From: a virus
Virus record (IMG/VR): IMGVR_UViG_3300025940_000020
Coordinates: 1-28,360 of that record
Length of the DNA: 28,360 bases
Direction: 5' to 3' (one strand)
Shown: piece after piece, positions 20,577-28,359 of the stretch
Layout: every line of letters begins with the position of its first letter
How positions within the stretch are numbered: position 1 is the first letter of the stretch
Made by a program: the position numbers and the translations under genes
Notes under the pieces: generated by a model
Database searches by the model: none
Seen by the model: only the letters and a program-made list of their open reading frames with translations
Told to the model about the DNA's origin: nothing

Positions 20577-20831
20577 GTGCAAAGACTTCGGGATCGCAGC
20601 ACGGGAGACCTGCTGGTACTGATGGTGACGGCTACCGTCTGCATCTCCATCATGGCGAGTGGAGTGACAATCGTGATCGTAGAAATCGTCAAACCACAGA
20701 GCGACACCACCGATGGTCTACAGAGCATCACGGGGATCATCAACACCCTGATCGGTCTGATCGCCGGCTTCCTGGCGGGCAAGACCGGAAGTACGCTGGC
20801 GGACAAGAAAGAAGATGACCCGCCTCTATGA
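20577..20831 (+). CDS. Small membrane protein, candidate holin
   Basis: 84-residue protein with a GTG start at 20577 and a strong AAGGAGG site at 20565-20571. It has two predicted transmembrane segments: '[19 protein letters not shown]' extending to about residue 40, and '[18 protein letters not shown]'. The start ([11 protein letters not shown]) and the end (LADKKEDD) are charged. The size, two-segment layout and location two genes before the endolysin fit a holin or a holin partner. The stop overlaps the next start (ATGA). A second holin-like gene lies at 21413, so which one forms the pore is unclear. Confidence 0.6.
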
Positions 20832-21358
20832 TGCGACGCGTCTACGGCAACCCGATCATCGGCTATGGCCTCGCTGGCATCCTGATGATAGTGGCCTTCG
20901 TCGGGACAATCGCAGCAGCCCGAGCCGACACACAGCCTGTATCGTTGGACCGTCCGGCACCGTCCTCCACCCCGACGCCGGTGCCGGGTCCGCAGGGTCC
21001 GCAGGGTGAGGCTGGCCCTCCAGGTCCTCAAGGGCCTCCTGGTGTTCCTGGCAACGACGGCGCTGATGGTAGTTCTGGTGACACTGGCGCTTCTGGTCGC
21101 AGCGGTGCTGATGGGAGCGCTGGCCCTCGCGGTGCTCGCGGCAGCAGCGTGACGGGACCGCAGGGCAAGACCGGACCGGAGGGGCCTCGAGGACGACGAG
21201 GGCCACGGGGCTTCCCTGGACGGCAGGGACCACCCGGCCCCGCGCAGCCTCCGGGGGCCTGCCCTCCAGGCTTCACCTTCCGGGTGGTGGCCGTTCACCA
21301 GCGAGCGCCGGTTGACAGAGACTTGGTCATCCAGGTGTGTGTCCAAGACGGACAATGA
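20828..21358 (+). CDS. Membrane-anchored collagen-like protein in lysis region
   Basis: 176-residue protein. Start ATG 20828 overlaps the stop of the previous gene; ATG 20831 is one codon later. Residues about 8-33 form one hydrophobic segment ([22 protein letters not shown]) that serves as signal anchor. A Pro/Thr/Ser spacer leads into about 30 Gly-X-Y triplets (from GPQGPQ near residue 54 to about 140), with one interruption at GSSVTG. The C-terminal 35 residues contain two cysteines (GACPPGF and VCVQ) and may form a small folded head. It would sit in the membrane with a collagen-like stalk in the wall. The function is unknown: it might link membrane and wall during lysis, act as a surface protein of infected cells, or be a virion fibre. 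Confidence 0.7.
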
Positions 21359-22941: not shown

Positions 22942-22946
22942 TTGCC

Positions 22947-23030
22947 TCAGAGGCCCTCAGAACCTCGCAGGGCTGGTGGCGGGTACCTGCACCCCACCGC
23001 ACCCCCCGCGAGCGTTCTGAGGGCCTCTGA
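22947..23030. terminator. Bidirectional terminator candidate (17-bp inverted repeat)
   Basis: TCAGAGGCCCTCAGAAC at 22947-22963 and its exact reverse complement at 23014-23030 enclose a 50-base loop, placed between the convergent endolysin (ends 22941) and GT4 glycosyltransferase (ends 23038). Each arm also contains a smaller palindrome (GAGGCCCTC). No long T-run follows on either side, as is common in GC-rich genomes. It is the only gap between the two transcription units, so it probably stops both. Confidence 0.75.
22992..23030. repeat. Dispersed repeat, copy 1 (intergenic)
   Basis: CCCCACCGCACC, then 17 bases, then GGGCCTCTGA. The same two blocks with the same 17-base spacing and orientation recur at 26825-26863 inside the thymidylate-synthase-like gene. 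This copy covers the right arm and part of the loop of the terminator. Confidence 0.5.
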
Positions 23031-23037
23031 CAGCGTT

Positions 23038-24009
23038 CTACGGCGTCGTTAGGGCGGCTACGCCCCCCGCAAACCGTTCCAACTCCTCGACTTCCCGCCA
23101 TGCGAGCATTCCCACGCGGGAGTAGGCCCGTTCCGACCAGATGTCGTACTCCAGTTCTACCTGTGTGAGCGAGTGGTCCAGTTCGTCGATCTTGGTCGTC
23201 TTGAGGAGCAGCGCCGCCGTGCCGATTCCTTCGCGGACGTGCGGGGTGTCCACGTGGACCGAGGGGATCCCGTACCATGCCGCCTCCACTGCGGCCATCC
23301 CGTAGGTCTCATATCGTGACGGGACCAGCAGGACGCGAGTCTCAGCCCAGAGCCGGTTCATCTCGTCGGGGTGCAGGCGCGGCCAGATCTCTACGTTGCC
23401 CAACTTCTCCGCCTGCTCCCAGAACGCGGGGTCGCCGTGGGTCGGGTGCGCGGGGGACTCGACAATGATGAACCGCTGGTCCCAGCGCCGAGCCGCGAGT
23501 TTGAGCACGCGAGCCGCCCCCTTGTTCACGAGAGACGAGGTCAGCGTCAGCGCGTTGCGCGGCCCCTCCAGCATCTTGAGCGGCTCGCCGATCGGTGGGT
23601 GCAGCAGCCACCCCTCTGGGTCATGCCATTCCTTGCGAGCGACCTCCGTGTTGTAGAGGCGAACCGTGGCTGACGCCCGCGCCCGCCGCAGGTCCTTCCC
23701 GAACTGAGGCGGTGCGTGGACGGTGAGGATGGATGGAAGGTCCAGGTGCCGCGCAGCCCGGATGGTCTCATCGGACAGTCTCGAGTGCCCGAACAGAACG
23801 CTGGCCCCAACGGACCTAGCGTCGTCCTTGATGCACTGGACGGACACACCCGTCGCCGGCATCACCGAGACCCCGTCGAGTTGATACTCCTCGAGCGCCG
23901 TCGTGAACACAACCGATCCAGGCACGGCCCTGAGGGCGCGGTGGGTAGCCATCTCTCCGCCCATGGACCAGAGCGGCGGGTAGCCGTGGAGGAACGCGGT
24001 GAGCGTCAT
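23038..24009 (-). CDS. GT4-type glycosyltransferase (GT-B fold)
   Basis: 323-residue probable retaining glycosyltransferase. The C-terminal half has the GT4 signature 'VPSRYETYGMAAVEAAWYGIPSV' with an exact E-x7-E motif (ETYGMAAVE), which normally binds the sugar nucleotide. The N-terminal half has 'HGYPPLWSMGGEMATHRALRA', a GT-B acceptor-side opening with a GGE loop. The central 'LTSSLVNKGAARVLKLAARRWDQRFIIVE' is the usual strand-helix after the domain joint. It is somewhat shorter than typical GT4 enzymes. ATG 24009 overlaps the stop of the upstream glycosyltransferase gene (ATGA). It is the last gene of the leftward operon. Donor and acceptor are unknown: DNA base, virion protein or host polymer. 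Confidence 0.85.
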   Translation of the reverse strand: MTLTAFLHGYPPLWSMGGEMATHRALRAVPGSVVFTTALEEYQLDGVSVMPATGVSVQCIKDDARSVGASVLFGHSRLSDETIRAARHLDLPSILTVHAPPQFGKDLRRARASATVRLYNTEVARKEWHDPEGWLLHPPIGEPLKMLEGPRNALTLTSSLVNKGAARVLKLAARRWDQRFIIVESPAHPTHGDPAFWEQAEKLGNVEIWPRLHPDEMNRLWAETRVLLVPSRYETYGMAAVEAAWYGIPSVHVDTPHVREGIGTAALLLKTTKIDELDHSLTQVELEYDIWSERAYSRVGMLAWREVEELERFAGGVAALTTP

Positions 24010-24683
24010 CGCAGGCGGCGCTTCCAGTCACTGTCCTGTGTCCAGCGGAGGTACGCCTTCCGATCGGCGCGGCGGATGTTCGGGTTGCGCCCGCCCTCGT
24101 GGTAGGTCTGGTCGTGTATCTCCTCGCCCTCGGCCCACGGGTGGAGATGTCTGATCTTGACCGGCACGAACACGAAGTTCTTGAGGTACCGGCCCACGTC
24201 TCTCGCCACGTTGTCCAGGTACAGATGGCGGATGTCGGGCGGCGACAGGTAGCCGAGACGACGATAGACCTCGGTGTGGGTGATGTAGTGCGTCGGCAGG
24301 TCGGGGTCATGCCTGCTCCGTAGGCCGTCGTCACCATAGGCGACACCGAGGTCGTCGCCCAGCGCCTCGACCAGCCGAGTGTCCCAATGCGGCGTCTCTG
24401 TCACCACGTCGTCGCCGAACATGCCCAGATGCGACACCCCGTCCCGCTCAGCATCACGGGCCAGTTCGTTCAAGGAAGGGCCGAAGCCGACCCGGAGACC
24501 GTGGCGGACGGAGATGTTCTTGTGCTTCCCCCCGATAACCGTGTCGTACGCGGGTGCCAGTAGGTCGTCGTAGTCGAGCCGGAGGTACAGGTGCCAGTCG
24601 TCAGTGGTTTCCTCAACCGCCATGAGGAAACGGGCGAGGGTGTGAGGTCTCCCTCGCGAAGGGAGCAGGATCCCGAGAGTCAC
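24006..24683 (-). CDS. Phage-type GT-A glycosyltransferase
   Basis: 225-residue predicted glycosyltransferase. The GTG start at 24683 overlaps the stop of the upstream gene (GTGA) and puts the first beta strand 'LGILLPSRGRP' at the N-terminus, as expected for a GT-A fold; a start at 24779 would overlap the Stealth-like gene by about 100 bases. Acidic metal-binding candidates are 'LRLDYDD' and 'GMFGDDVV'. The segments 'HWDTRLVEAL', 'GVAYGDDGLRSRHDPDLPTHYITHTEVYRRLGY' and 'IRHLYLDNVARDVGRYL' followed by 'VPVKIRHLHPWAEG' match a family widespread in actinophages and usually annotated as glycosyltransferase. It is coupled to the GT4 gene by a 4-base overlap. Substrate unknown. Confidence 0.8.
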   Translation of the reverse strand: MTLGILLPSRGRPHTLARFLMAVEETTDDWHLYLRLDYDDLLAPAYDTVIGGKHKNISVRHGLRVGFGPSLNELARDAERDGVSHLGMFGDDVVTETPHWDTRLVEALGDDLGVAYGDDGLRSRHDPDLPTHYITHTEVYRRLGYLSPPDIRHLYLDNVARDVGRYLKNFVFVPVKIRHLHPWAEGEEIHDQTYHEGGRNPNIRRADRKAYLRWTQDSDWKRRLR

Positions 24684-25375
24684 TTGGTTTCTCTTTCGTA
24701 GGGCGACTTGTCCGGGAAGAGGTATCTCAGTACCGGCTCCACGGTTGAGCGGAACGTATCGTCGCTGGAGGATAGCCACGCACCCCGAGGGAACGGGTGG
24801 GTCCGGCGCATCAACTTGGGGTCATGATGCTCCACGCCCTCGAGACCTGACAAGGCCCCGTAGAGCGTCCTCAGGTGAACGGCATCAGTGGGAACGTTCT
24901 TCGCCAGCCGCAGCGCCTCTCGCATTGGGGCCTTGTGGACGACCAGCGGTAGATGGACGTCGTAGCACATCGCCCCCGCCAGCATCTCTCGCCGCTCCAT
25001 CAGCGCGGCGGTCTTGCGTAGCCCATCCGCCCACGGCGTCTTCAGCATGGCGTACGTCTTGAGCACGGACTCCAGCGGGCCACGATGATAGAGCGGCATG
25101 GGGTCGACGTAGTGCATCGCGTAGAAGTCGTCGTTCCAGAGCACGAAGGGGTCGCTCACGTCCACGGTGTTGCACGCGGCCCCGATATGGCCTCGGACGG
25201 ATGCGTACGGCGACCCGCCCTGCCTACGCCTCTGGAGAGTGATCTTGGCTAGGTTGATCCAGTTGGGTGCGCCCCCGAAGATCCATACCCGGTCGTGCTC
25301 CACGTTCACCAGTGTGCGAAGAGAGTATCGGAGTTCGGGGTTGCTCCCGTCCCGGCAGACGTAGACCACGTCCAT
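24680..25375 (-). CDS. Stealth-like sugar-phosphate transferase family protein
   Basis: 231-residue protein. ATG 25375 overlaps the stop of the upstream small gene (TGATG); a longer open frame to 25522 is antisense-overlap shadow. The sequence resembles the central conserved region of Stealth proteins, which are hexose-1-phosphoryltransferases in capsule synthesis: 'CRDGSNPELRYSLRTL' (compare RDN-ELRYSLRS), 'HDRVWIFGGAPNWINL', then an acidic 'FVLWNDDFYAM' (compare F-YLNDDFF). C-terminal 'DDTFRSTVEPVLRYLFPDKSPYE' corresponds to a closing motif of related phage proteins. It might move a sugar phosphate or act as an ordinary glycosyltransferase. It is shorter than cellular Stealth proteins and lacks their first and last conserved regions. 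Confidence 0.6.
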   Translation of the reverse strand: MDVVYVCRDGSNPELRYSLRTLVNVEHDRVWIFGGAPNWINLAKITLQRRRQGGSPYASVRGHIGAACNTVDVSDPFVLWNDDFYAMHYVDPMPLYHRGPLESVLKTYAMLKTPWADGLRKTAALMERREMLAGAMCYDVHLPLVVHKAPMREALRLAKNVPTDAVHLRTLYGALSGLEGVEHHDPKLMRRTHPFPRGAWLSSSDDTFRSTVEPVLRYLFPDKSPYERETK

Positions 25376-25575
25376 CACAGGAGTTCTGCTCCCGCGCCGT
25401 GGTACTCCACCGTTTCTCCGGTCTCCTTGTCTACGGCCCGAGCCAGAACCCCCCGCTTCGCCAACTTCTGGACGTACGCCTTCGGGTTCATCAGGTTGAG
25501 CCCCGCGTGGCCGACCTCCCACTGGCCTGTCATCGCGTTCCAGTACTCAATGCGAACGAACGTGGGGTGGTCCAT
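25375..25575 (-). CDS. Small protein of unknown function (66 residues)
   Basis: ATG 25575 overlaps the stop of the 38-residue membrane protein gene (TGATG); a GTG one codon earlier is also possible. GAGAGG upstream could be the binding site. The protein is soluble, with an N-terminal beta-like part (FVRIEYWNAMTGQWEVGHAGLNLMNP), a short helix (KAYVQKLAKRG) and a C-terminal 'ARAVDKETGETVEYHG'. It has no known motif. Its stop overlaps the Stealth-like gene start, so it is made together with the sugar-transfer enzymes. Confidence 0.65.
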   Translation of the reverse strand: MDHPTFVRIEYWNAMTGQWEVGHAGLNLMNPKAYVQKLAKRGVLARAVDKETGETVEYHGAGAELL

Positions 25576-25691
25576 CACTTGTAGCCTCTCTTCTCATCCT
25601 CATCGCTGGATGCCCTGACGAGCGAGTAGGCGATCAGCAGGACGGCGAGATACGCGATTGCCCCGAGAATGGTCCAGAGCCACCACGGCAT
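25575..25691 (-). CDS. 38-residue membrane protein
   Basis: A short gene missed by length cut-offs. ATG 25691 is preceded by a perfect AGGAGGA (25703-25697) five bases away, and it ends in a stop that overlaps the next start (TGATG). The protein starts MPWWLW and has a single hydrophobic helix (TILGAIAYLAVLLIAYSLV), then a charged tail (RASSDEDEKRGYK). One base separates it from the upstream stop. It may anchor or regulate a partner at the membrane, for example one of the glycosyltransferases. No family was recognised. Confidence 0.75.
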   Translation of the reverse strand: MPWWLWTILGAIAYLAVLLIAYSLVRASSDEDEKRGYK

Positions 25692-25692
25692 C

Positions 25693-25929
25693 CTAATCCT
25701 CCTCTTTCCTCAGGTCGTCCAGGAGATCTTCGTACTCTCCGCGGTGCCGGTCCCGCAGCACGGCCAGCGCCTTCCGCCGGATCTTCTCGCCAGCCCGATT
25801 GCGGGCCAGCCCGTTCTTCGCCCGGTACTCCCGGACGTACTCGTTGATCGCTTCGCGACATTCGTCACACGGTGGGTCGCCCATGCGACGGTGAGCGTAG
25901 TACCCGCTTCGCGTGCCATGATTGATCAT
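25693..25929 (-). CDS. Small Cys/His protein of a common actinophage type
   Basis: 78-residue basic protein. ATG 25929 overlaps the upstream stop (ATGA). The N-terminus 'HGTRSGYYAHRRMGDPPCDECREAINEYVREYRAK' has the pattern HGT-x-GY-xx-HRR-G-xx-PC-xx-CR-A seen in many small proteins of actinobacteria and their phages. The CxxC with nearby histidines could bind zinc. The C-terminal half is helical and charged (RRKALAVLRDRHRGEYEDLLDDLRKEED). It possibly binds DNA or RNA, but no function is established. Confidence 0.75.
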   Translation of the reverse strand: MINHGTRSGYYAHRRMGDPPCDECREAINEYVREYRAKNGLARNRAGEKIRRKALAVLRDRHRGEYEDLLDDLRKEED

Positions 25930-26243
25930 ATGCAGAGCACCTCTTCCGTGTGGATGACGACCGCAGCCCCCCGTAGGATGATGAACGGGGTGGTCTGAAA
26001 CAGAGTGGGGTCAGCACCCGACGGGGTGGAGCCCCCATCCACGAACTCGGGGAACATCTCGGCCCTGAGACGCATCTCCTGGAGGGCTTGGATCCCCTCG
26101 GCGTCTGTGTCCTCCTCGGCACTCCAGATCACCCACACACCGGCCTCCTCGTTGTTGACGACCGTGGCGTCGGGAACGCGGGCAGCCGCGTCCAACGCCA
26201 TGGATCCGTCCGGAAGCGCGAGTAGCGCGGTGTAGATCGTCAT
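25926..26243 (-). CDS. Protein of unknown function (105 residues)
   Basis: ATG 26243 overlaps the stop of the thymidylate-synthase-like gene (TGATG). It is acidic, with an N-terminal beta-alpha pattern (MTIYTALLALPDGSMALDAAARVPDATVVNNEEAGVWVIWSAEE), then a helix (AEGIQALQEMRLRAEMF), a loop and a hydrophobic strand (FIILRGAAVVIH). It has no signal, membrane span or catalytic motif. The operon position suggests a link to nucleotide metabolism or modification, but nothing in the sequence proves it. Confidence 0.65.
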   Translation of the reverse strand: MTIYTALLALPDGSMALDAAARVPDATVVNNEEAGVWVIWSAEEDTDAEGIQALQEMRLRAEMFPEFVDGGSTPSGADPTLFQTTPFIILRGAAVVIHTEEVLCI

Positions 26244-27823
26244 CAGTCGGAGTCAGCTCCCTTGTACTCGTCGTAGGACGCGGTCATGCCGTCTTCATAG
26301 GCTGCCTCGAGGACGGCGGCGGCACCCGGTCCGTGAATCTTGTCGTTCTGCTGCTCCTCGTACCAGACGTCGCGGGCGATGGGGGTCACTCGCAGTCCCA
26401 GCGCGGTCAGGAACGCTAGTTTCTGGTCGGTGTTGAAGTCGTCGATGTTGTCGCAGTAGCGATTGAAGTCATCCACGATGTCGACGATGGCGATGTCCGC
26501 CGCCTGATCCACGCACTCCTCGCTGTCGGACAGGAACTGCGCCAGCATGAAGTTGACCTTCTCAGGGCCGTCGTCTGTGCCGCCGAGCCAGCACCCGTAC
26601 TTGATCGAGTAGACCAGCAGGTCGATCAGGGTGTCCGCCGAACTGTCGAACTCGTCGCCGACTCCCAGCCGGTCCACCTTGCGGGCCATGTTCGCCAGGA
26701 TAGACATCTTCTCGCCGCGCTTCTTCCACGAGTTTCCGTACGACGCGTGCTTCTTGGCGTGCAGGTCGGTGACGAAGCCGTAGAACGCTCGTGTACGCTC
26801 GTGCGCGGCTAGGTTGTGCCCTACCCCCACCGCACCGCTGGACGACGCTGTACGGGCCTCTGAGAGCACGCTGGCGGGGGTTCTAGCCATTGCCACGGCC
26901 AGCGCCGTGCCGTCGAGCATCAGGAGCCACCGTTCCTCCCGCTGCCAGTAGTATGCGATCGCCGCTGCCCAGGACTTGAACAGCGGCTCATCGATCTCCT
27001 CCAGGCCCTCTAGCGTGGCCTTGCCCTCTCGGCACAACCCCTCCCACGCGAACCAGCGGTCGAGGAGGATGTCCACCCATTCGAGCTCCCGGCCCATGTG
27101 ATCGGGCATCTGGAACGGGACGACCGGGTAGACGGCGGGCTCGTACTCGATGCGGCGGGCCTTGTCCCAATGCTGGCCGTAGAGATGCAGGCTGCCGATG
27201 TTGAATGTGAGCGTGCCCACGGTGATGCCGAGCAGGTGGGCCACGATCTCCTGGAGGGTGCTCCACTCGAAGGCGTTGATCCCCGACCAGCCCCACATCA
27301 CATCATTGGACCGCACGGTCACGGTCATGTGCAGCGCACCGAGGCGGCTCTGGAACTGCAAGAAGTCGTTGCAGGGGATGTCCTTGCCGGGGGCTGAGTC
27401 CACGCTGGGGTCGTAGATCGCGATCACCGCACGCCGTGACAGCGGGTCCGCCTGGAGCAAGTCCAGAACGTGGGCGAGTTGATCGAAGCCGAAGTGCGTG
27501 TCGCGGATGCGCGGGCCGTAGCCGCCCCTCCACGTCTCCCCGTCGTCGCTGTAGTCCTTGGCCCGTGGGAGGTAGGCGCTGAGCCACTCGATGTCGTTGC
27601 GCCCCGCCAGCACCCACATCGTCTCAGCGATCTGGGCGAAGACGTTGGCCTTGCGGTTGATGCTGAGGATCTCCCGCTGCTGCGGATCTGTCAGGACGAT
27701 CTGGGCGTTCAGGTGCTCCTTCACCCGCCCGTTCCTGCTGCCGACCTCATCGCCTAGTTCCAGCAGGTCGGACAGGATCTGTGGGAGAACCTCGCTCGCC
27801 GTGGGTGCTTCGAACCTACTCAC
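26243..27823 (-). CDS. Thymidylate synthase-like protein fused to Nmad1/DUF1599-like domain
   Basis: 526 residues, about twice ThyA length; the GTG start at 27823 overlaps the upstream stop (GTGA). Residues about 20-235 follow ThyA or pyrimidine hydroxymethylase. The catalytic cysteine is probably Cys151 in 'DIPCNDFLQF'. An SRRAV phosphate-binding motif, 'RSNDVMWGWSGINAFEW' (family RS-D---G-P-N---Y) and 'GSLHLYGQHWD' (family D-H-Y-NH--) are present. The Asn in GIN is the residue that favours uracil over cytosine in ThyA. A helical stretch and a low-complexity linker (about 312-342) lead to a domain with 'LHAKKHASYGNSWKKRGEKMSILANMARKVDRL', resembling Nmad1/DUF1599. This domain is linked by comparative genomics to nucleotide modification. 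Likely activity: dTMP or 5-hydroxymethyl-dUMP formation. The tail is rich in Asp/Glu. Confidence 0.75.
   Translation of the reverse strand: MSRFEAPTASEVLPQILSDLLELGDEVGSRNGRVKEHLNAQIVLTDPQQREILSINRKANVFAQIAETMWVLAGRNDIEWLSAYLPRAKDYSDDGETWRGGYGPRIRDTHFGFDQLAHVLDLLQADPLSRRAVIAIYDPSVDSAPGKDIPCNDFLQFQSRLGALHMTVTVRSNDVMWGWSGINAFEWSTLQEIVAHLLGITVGTLTFNIGSLHLYGQHWDKARRIEYEPAVYPVVPFQMPDHMGRELEWVDILLDRWFAWEGLCREGKATLEGLEEIDEPLFKSWAAAIAYYWQREERWLLMLDGTALAVAMARTPASVLSEARTASSSGAVGVGHNLAAHERTRAFYGFVTDLHAKKHASYGNSWKKRGEKMSILANMARKVDRLGVGDEFDSSADTLIDLLVYSIKYGCWLGGTDDGPEKVNFMLAQFLSDSEECVDQAADIAIVDIVDDFNRYCDNIDDFNTDQKLAFLTALGLRVTPIARDVWYEEQQNDKIHGPGAAAVLEAAYEDGMTASYDEYKGADSD
26825..26863. repeat. Dispersed repeat, copy 2 (inside coding linker)
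   Basis: CCCCACCGCACC and GGGCCTCTGA at 17-base spacing, same as at 22992-23030 behind the endolysin. Here it encodes, on the minus strand, the low-complexity linker between the thymidylate-synthase-like part and the Nmad1-like part. Confidence 0.5.
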
Positions 27824-28359
27824 GGCAACTCCATCTCGTCGATCGCAGTCTGGAGGGACTCACGGGCTGCCTCCAGCCATGCCGCCTGCGCCTCCTCGAA
27901 GTCGGTGTAGTCGACGCCGTCGATGGTCCACTCTCCGGCGTCCTCCTCAGGCTCGTCCTCCGGCTCCCACTGCTCCAGGGCCTCAGCGGCGCTGTTCAGC
28001 ATCTCCGCTCGCTCCTGGAGGTCCATGTTCCGCTCGAACATCTCGCTGTCCTCGTACTCCCCGGCGACCTCTTGGGTTGCGGTGACCACGTCGTCCCGGA
28101 TCTGGGTCAGGTCCTCGAGACCCCCAGCGGCGGAGACGTCGGCGTCCTCCTGCGCGGCGTACACGCCAGACACCAGAGATGACTCCCGCTCGCTGGGCTT
28201 CGGGTAGCACTCGGTCTTCGTGCAGCGGGTCTGCACAAACCCGCGGAACCCGACAGAGAAACGGACAGCCGGGTCCCCGACGTTGACCTCCTGCCCGCAC
28301 TTCCCGCACTTGCCGGGCTTCCGCACCCGGCCGATCTGATTCACTTTCGCCAAACTCAT
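27820..28359 (-). CDS. Zinc-ribbon protein of unknown function
   Basis: 179 residues, with ATG at 28359, one base from the window edge; the frame may continue beyond, so the start is provisional. An N-terminal zinc-ribbon is likely: 'GKCGKCGQEVNVGDPAVRF' gives CxxC and 'QTRCTKTECY' gives a second Cys pair; this layout (CEKCG---I--GD) is frequent in phage proteins. The remainder is strongly acidic and helical, with a coiled-coil-like 'FERNMDLQERAEMLNSAAEALEQ' and a C-terminal 'FEEAQAAWLEAARESLQTAIDEME'. Its stop overlaps the GTG of the thymidylate-synthase-like gene. It may bind nucleic acid or act as an assembly factor; no direct evidence. Confidence 0.7.
   Translation of the reverse strand: MSLAKVNQIGRVRKPGKCGKCGQEVNVGDPAVRFSVGFRGFVQTRCTKTECYPKPSERESSLVSGVYAAQEDADVSAAGGLEDLTQIRDDVVTATQEVAGEYEDSEMFERNMDLQERAEMLNSAAEALEQWEPEDEPEEDAGEWTIDGVDYTDFEEAQAAWLEAARESLQTAIDEMELP

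Follow-up and report, generated by a model that had tools for sequence, protein, structure and literature searches.

Gene content and conservation of the operon

The window analysed here, i.e. the whole 28360-base stretch of IMG/VR virus record IMGVR_UViG_3300025940_000020 (a linear contig), ends in an operon of nine minus-strand open reading frames (ORFs; 23038-28359). Therein, a ThyA-family protein predicted to act as a hydroxymethylase is encoded together with a Stealth-type sugar-phosphate transferase and two glycosyltransferases of the GT-A and GT4 types. All nine ORFs were also picked independently by a codon-usage gene caller. The distances at the junctions are -4, -4, -1, -4, +1, -4, -1 and -4 bases; thus 8 of 8 lie within -4 to +1, whereas 6 of the 17 plus-strand junctions in this window do so (Fisher p = 0.003). 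The nine gapless leftward genes described in the first-pass annotation of this DNA were thereby borne out in position and spacing. The features are given below with coordinates, strand and, in brackets, the basis of the assignment (aa, amino acids).

g1: 27820-28359, minus strand, 179-aa Cys-rich protein (contig end)
g2: 26243-27823, minus strand, putative ThyA-family hydroxymethylase domain plus Nmad1/SPO1-gp30-like domain, GTG start (homology)
g3: 25926-26243, minus strand, 105-aa protein (blastp to L009:10645-10956)
g4: 25693-25929, minus strand, 78-aa protein similar to the C-terminal tail of WhiB-like regulators from phages (phrog_12112, 1.9e-9)
g5: 25575-25691, minus strand, 38-aa peptide with one hydrophobic stretch (gene caller; homologs in L007, L008 and L011)
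g6: 25375-25578, minus strand, 67-aa conserved protein (kept in 6 of 6 sister contigs)
g7: 24680-25375, minus strand, 231-aa minimal Stealth-type sugar-phosphate transferase (phrog_7999, 7.1e-50; Stealth_CR2)
g8: 24006-24683, minus strand, 225-aa GT-A-fold glycosyltransferase, GTG start (phrog_14945, 3.3e-28)
g9: 23038-24009, minus strand, 323-aa glycosyltransferase of the GT4 family, ending the operon (Glyco_trans_1_4, 3.7e-9)
Hairpin: 22942-23037, no strand, intergenic, separating the GT4 gene from the convergent endolysin gene (folding energy)

The 96-base hairpin has a minimum free energy of -71.6 kcal/mol (z = -7.5) and contains a 17-base perfect inverted repeat (22947-22963 / 23014-23030). 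It is probably a bidirectional terminator closing the operon. Since the record is linear and ends at g1, the operon probably continues past this gene.

Six IMG/VR sister contigs share the block, namely G001 (55.7 kb), G002, G003, G004, G005 and G006, with G002 and G003 being near-identical. The main operon proteins of the window exhibit about 60-80% identity to those of the sisters. There, the gene order is single-stranded DNA-binding protein (SSB), DNA polymerase A, 5-hydroxymethyldeoxyuridine (5-hmdU) DNA kinase (HMUDK_hel), g1 in some of them, and ThyA-Nmad1. Five of the six gave matches to the HMUDK_hel family at about 1e-47 or better; in G006 the last residues of the kinase stand at the contig end. 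The window itself carries no kinase, its end falling where the sisters have it. Because they carry this gene right beyond the window's end, the window's own phage probably encodes it, too.

The block of G001 continues a long replication arm of the same orientation, which encodes an SNF2-type helicase, a primase-like protein, a nuclease and SSB. The block ends at the GT4 gene, and the late genes are located on the opposite strand. G001-G004 have Stealth, GT-A and GT4 in the interval from ThyA to the lysis genes, and G005 ends before their position. A conserved linkage in relatives, on which the proposal of the first-pass annotation had been made to depend, holds inside this clade: Stealth follows ThyA in all five sisters long enough to tell, accompanied by both GT-A and GT4 in four of them. 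The operon is real and conserved, and the block represents the 3' end of the replication operon of an uncultured phage whose host is probably an actinobacterium.

The two domains of the ThyA-Nmad1 protein

The ThyA domain of g2 (about aa 1-325) matches Pfam Thymidylat_synt at 2.1e-23. Searching the PDB with g2 retrieved a cytidine monophosphate (CMP) 5-hydroxymethylase as best match (3.5e-29), compared to 5e-14 for the best thymidylate synthase. The family profile of g2 agrees with this (1e-41 for CMP 5-hydroxymethylase vs. 8e-25 for thymidylate synthases), and the scores for the NCBIfam thymidylate synthase equivalogs were far under their cut-off. The conserved core comprises Cys151, R171-S-N-D174 and H213-x-Y215, which correspond to residues involved in catalysis and substrate binding in thymidylate synthases. 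Furthermore, N183 is invariant across 16 homologs, whereas the CMP 5-hydroxymethylase has Asp at the aligned position. In thymidylate synthases, Asn at that position is the residue reading uracil, and Asp is of the cytosine type found in dCMP hydroxymethylase. With its uracil-type Asn183, g2 therefore has deoxyuridine monophosphate (dUMP) as the likely substrate. A hydroxymethylase-type function of the ThyA domain, acting on dUMP with 5-hydroxymethyl-dUMP as predicted product, is well supported by these comparisons. Among phage proteins, MONT_51 (Glutamicibacter phage Montesquieu) and gp41 (Brevibacterium phage LuckyBarnes) are the closest relatives; more weakly related are, among others, proteins annotated as dUMP hydroxymethylases in Bordetella and Pseudomonas phages.

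Pfam and PHROGs both name g2 a thymidylate synthase, and it has been cautioned in the work on phages SP-15 and PhiW-14 that sequence alone poorly separates thymidylate synthases from hydroxymethylases (PMC5977210). Accordingly, g2 might be an ordinary enzyme making dTMP, in which case the block would not modify DNA at all. We consider this quite improbable. Not only is g2 nearer to the CMP hydroxymethylase than to any thymidylate synthase and fused to an SPO1-gp30-like domain, but a gene of the 5-hmdU DNA kinase family is also present in 19 of 25 records, including all the ThyA-bearing ones except one short contig. Moreover, in the relatives ThyA is followed either by amino-acid:DNA transferase (ADDT), pyridoxal phosphate (PLP) enzyme and kinase modules or by modules with a TET-associated glycosyltransferase (TAGT).

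The C-terminal domain of g2 (about aa 337-450) is helical in the predicted fold. The Pfam Nmad1 model (PF07659, DUF1599) gave no direct match in 16 g2 homologs nor in 19 whole records at E 10, and Foldseek with the model of this domain detected nothing significant in the PDB. Outside the fusion proteins, tblastn hits to this domain were mostly weak and clustered in SPO1-type Bacillus phages (E values of 0.003-0.1) and Lysinibacillus phages (1e-5). In a profile comparison (hhalign) it was aligned to a set consisting of SPO1 gp30, LysYB1 and the crAss-like cr85_1 with 98.9% probability, and cr85_1 itself matches PF07659 at 1.3e-11. By these comparisons the domain is Nmad1-related, not a member of the Nmad1 family. 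In SPO1, gene 30 comes a short distance behind gene 29, whose product is annotated as a dUMP hydroxymethylase, and precedes the genes for TF1 and the DNA polymerase; in phage Goe26 the gp30 homolog lies directly 3' of thyA. Thus the two domains of g2 correspond to near-neighbour genes of SPO1, which are separate proteins in that phage but one fused protein in the window.

Of what had been predicted for g2, the ThyA-family hydroxymethylase is supported by the CMP 5-hydroxymethylase match, Asn183, the gp30-like partner domain and the 5-hmdU DNA kinase adjoining it in the sisters. The fusion with Nmad1 was right in substance, the link being provided by intermediate sequences (the gp30 set and cr85_1), although the Pfam Nmad1 model finds nothing.

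Putative exchange of tailoring modules behind ThyA

In G002, G003, G004 and G006 a TAGT gene (PF20691) is located directly after ThyA, and G002 and G003 carry a second copy. This family includes the T6 enzyme by which glucosylated hydroxymethylcytosine receives its second glucose (PMC13216743, PMC13390438). At this position, g3 is found instead in the window, G001 and G005. As g3 and the gene following TAGT in the sisters are distantly homologous (blastp E 6e-5), TAGT has been inserted or lost cleanly. The window gave no match to the TAGT family model, which carries little weight for a fragment. Neither in the window nor in the six sisters was ADDT (PF18724) matched, and they do not belong to the amino-type subgroup.

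More distant phages with ThyA-Nmad1 encode an amino-acid:DNA transferase, a PLP enzyme and a P-loop kinase after ThyA, which corresponds to the known amino-type pathway. Of 20 records, 7 contained ADDT; TAGT was present in 6 of 23, and no record contained both. When homologs are counted, nine records belong to the amino type and nine to the sugar type with zero overlap (Fisher p = 4e-5), seven of the latter representing one lineage. Brevibacterium phage LuckyBarnes has the order ThyA-TAGT-TAGT-HMUDK. The cultured Microbacterium phage Nucci encodes ThyA (gp48), TAGT (gp45, 5.5e-11) and HMUDK (gp56, 1.3e-32), and this kinase has matches in 42 Microbacterium records. This distribution suggests that a core of ThyA and 5-hmdU kinase exchanges its tailoring modules, which are of the amino-acid type in some phages and of the sugar type in others. 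The kinase and TAGT of the sisters and this module swap support a hypermodification of thymidine in which the tailoring module is of the sugar type.

A 310-aa protein with an LLDDDV motif is encoded at L012:894-1826 and L008:452-1384, where G002 and G003 have the second TAGT. Tried as a divergent TAGT, this DDD protein of G001 and G005 reached a probability of 36%, which is suggestive only; it is possibly a very divergent glycosyltransferase.

The three sugar transferases

Taken alone, g7 matches Pfam Stealth_CR2 weakly (E 0.057). At the level of the family, Stealth_CR2 was detected in 13 of 13 members (best 1.6e-8), and a PDB profile search retrieved GNPTAB, the N-acetylglucosamine (GlcNAc)-1-phosphotransferase, at 2.8e-9 and CpsY at 7e-4. 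Invariant residues are N81, D82, D83, H141, R169 and E227. With these Stealth proteins g7 shares the CR2 region, the NDD motif, H-x-P and a C-terminal FPxxSPYE. It differs from them in its size of only 231 aa; Pfam CR1 and CR3 are not among the matches listed for the family at E 0.1, and CR4 was matched below threshold in 2 of 13 members (about 0.06). Hence g7 is a minimal Stealth enzyme, for which the family points to sugar-1-phosphate transfer as the presumable activity. A relationship of the g7 family to TAGT was considered and rejected.

Translation of g8 most likely starts at the GTG at 24683 rather than at the start of the longest ORF (24779). Its AlphaFold model has a predicted local distance difference test (pLDDT) score of 90.3, and RmlT, WrtF and SpsA were the closest folds in Foldseek. 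A homolog of g9 is gp20 of Streptomyces phage TurkishDelight. Scanning viral contigs with GT4 as the sole query yielded nothing although four sister contigs have GT4 homologs, which illustrates how weak single-sequence patterns are. NCBIfam contains no equivalog scoring above cut-off for Stealth, GT-A or GT4, and PADLOC assigned no defence family to the four main operon proteins. All three transferase assignments of the first-pass annotation were confirmed: Stealth firmly at family level, GT-A by its PHROG match and fold model, and GT4 by a clear Pfam match.

Two further observations concern homologs of these proteins in other phages. Stealth-type genes lying directly downstream of the major capsid gene are present in the uncultured phages L085, L088, L089, L091, L094 and L116 and are candidates for capsid phosphoglycosylation. 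Homologs of GT-A are paired beside a nucleotidyltransferase gene in the Streptomyces phages Faust (L033:4375-6087) and Tribute (L034:4366-6066); the Faust pair is also close to genes for a deoxynucleoside monophosphate kinase and a 5'-nucleotidase.

A possible sugar-type hypermodification of phage DNA

We propose that the operon encodes a variant of phage 5-hmdU hypermodification with a sugar or sugar-phosphate product, a proposal that is unproven but testable. According to homology, the ThyA domain of g2 would convert dUMP into 5-hydroxymethyl-dUMP, the fused Nmad1/gp30-like domain having a predicted role in replication or nucleotide handling. The phage's own DNA polymerase A, the gene of which neighbours the block in the sisters, would polymerise 5-hmdUTP into DNA, where the 5-hmdU DNA kinase, present in the sisters and presumably in the window's phage, would phosphorylate some of the 5-hmdU. 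GT-A and GT4 may then attach sugars at the hydroxymethyl group, and the Stealth-type enzyme may add a sugar-1-phosphate via a phosphodiester, either to the base or to a sugar linked to it. The phage DNA would thereby be shielded from restriction. That 5-hmdU is made, incorporated and partly phosphorylated is very probable in our view. For the transferases acting on phage DNA we estimate a probability of about 0.55. More specifically, Stealth could place a sugar-1-phosphate on 5-hydroxymethyluracil or its sugar, with GT-A and GT4 extending the phosphodiester-linked glycan; in this precise form we regard the scheme as rather unlikely. The presence of a kinase together with glycosyltransferases would mean either that 5-hmdU is phosphorylated only partially or that phosphorylation primes a different linkage.

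Parts of this scheme have counterparts in known phages. The phages M6, ViI and PhiW-14 represent the thymidine hypermodification pathway (PMC6449724). They share with the window and its sisters a ThyA of the dUMP hydroxymethylase type beside a 5-hmdU DNA kinase and a DNA polymerase (the latter two known from the sisters), whereas the window's clade lacks the amino-acid:DNA transferase and has sugar transferases at the tailoring position. Pelagiphages of the HTVC023P type possess clusters of thymidylate synthase, aGPT-PPlase1 and beta-glucosyl-hydroxymethylcytosine (HMC)-alpha-glucosyltransferase (PMC9599517). These phages as well as LuckyBarnes and Nucci combine ThyA, the kinase family and a TAGT-type enzyme, a combination which four of the sisters fit; on the other hand, no Stealth gene or such a GT-A/GT4 pair was seen in them, and the window lacks TAGT. 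Bacillus phage SP-15 contains a hypermodified thymine bearing glucose and phosphodiester-linked glucuronolactone (PMC5977210). It provides a chemical precedent only, i.e. a thymine-type base carrying a sugar via a phosphodiester, which makes a Stealth-type product on DNA chemically reasonable. SP-15 differs in using dihydroxypentyluracil and ThyX-type synthases, and PMC5977210 lists no Stealth gene.

Throughout the clade the transferases are coupled to ThyA within the replication arm, and the same operon of the sisters contains TAGT; both favour an action of the transferases on DNA. In the window and G001, which have neither TAGT nor ADDT, the candidates left for the tailoring step are Stealth, GT-A and GT4, plus the one DDD-motif protein of G001. 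Several findings weigh against this interpretation. G006 keeps ThyA and Stealth without GT-A and GT4, and the window itself contains no kinase gene. The mutual exclusion of the two modules lacks phylogenetic independence: the clade contributes seven records (two of them near-identical) that count as one lineage, and on the ThyA tree the sugar label needs about three changes, with weak support. GT-A was rejected as a disguised TAGT (hhalign probability 7%). Finally, 52 records from outside the clade that encode Stealth or GT-A homologs were searched for a relative of this ThyA, without a positive control, and 0 of them had one; in a separate search the same ThyA protein did retrieve G001 and the sisters.

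The last result, together with the surroundings of Stealth genes elsewhere, is also what would be expected if ThyA-Nmad1 (with the kinase and the TAGT of the sisters) modifies DNA, and Stealth, GT-A and GT4 form a separate cassette glycosylating the capsid, the tail or the host surface. Among 68 Stealth loci, the gene directly follows the major capsid gene in 6 and lies at most five genes from head or packaging genes in 13, which likewise argues against a DNA substrate. In TurkishDelight the GT4 and Stealth homologs flank the major tail protein gene, and HMUDK was found neither in this phage nor in Fionnbharth and OneUp. Mycobacteriophage capsids and tail tubes are reported to be glycosylated by phage glycosyltransferases, the genes of which may lie away from the capsid gene (PMC12363180, PMC11256854). 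However, the cassette is coupled to ThyA and the replication arm, with the late genes opposite, in every sister long enough, and at sequence level no mycobacteriophage was among the tblastn matches of GT-A and GT4 at 1e-5 (Che8, Corndog and Myrna enzymes). We regard glycosylation of virions or the cell surface as a possible explanation falling short of a probable one, and the first-pass annotation rightly kept it beside DNA glycosylation. As to the glycosylated pyrimidine that it had put forward, the hydroxymethylase and the linkage in the clade stood; the action of the three transferases on DNA is our interpretation, and their homologs outside the clade are without this ThyA.

Alternatively, the sugar transferases might act on free modified nucleotides or another small molecule instead of DNA or virions. 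In bacterial chromosomes there are cassettes joining relatives of ThyA-Nmad1 and HMUDK with a TylF-like methyltransferase, and such enzymes are therefore not confined to the tailoring of phage DNA. The window genes, in contrast, belong to a phage replication operon, and the sisters carry TAGT, a DNA-glycosyltransferase family. Of all the explanations considered we judge this one the least probable.

For the proposed sugar-type modification of DNA, the existence of cultured phages with the sugar-type core (LuckyBarnes, Nucci) makes the prediction directly testable. If Stealth does act on DNA, this would be a new DNA-modification chemistry providing a new tool enzyme, and bases would be modified by the enzyme class that makes capsule phosphoglycans and the lysosomal mannose-6-phosphate tag.

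Small genes of the operon and further observations

The cysteines of g1 are the only basis for the zinc-ribbon label it had been given, and no Pfam family matches the protein. Distant homologs occur in Arthrobacter and Microbacterium phages, and in the sister contigs L007 and L008 the gene stands between the kinase and ThyA. Like g6, g4 is kept in 6 of 6 sister contigs. The peptide g5 probably spans the membrane, judging from its hydrophobic stretch read by eye.

The chromosomal cassette of ThyA-Nmad1, TylF-like methyltransferase and 5-hmdU-kinase family gene was observed in alphaproteobacteria, actinobacteria and others (L164-L190). In L168:6730-11619 and L176:6676-11604 it is preceded by a Thoeris ThsB-type gene with a TIR domain (PADLOC 7e-55), and L168 also has a gene matching Nmad2 (2.4e-63) before the cassette. 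L189, L173 and L174 exhibit the same pattern of gene sizes, the two extra genes being judged there by size only. It is possible that this cluster is a host conflict or defence system using hydroxymethyl-pyrimidine chemistry.

In the window itself, a collagen-repeat protein (PF01391, 2.4e-13) is encoded at 20828-21358, with the tail-fibre region on one side and the lysis genes on the other.

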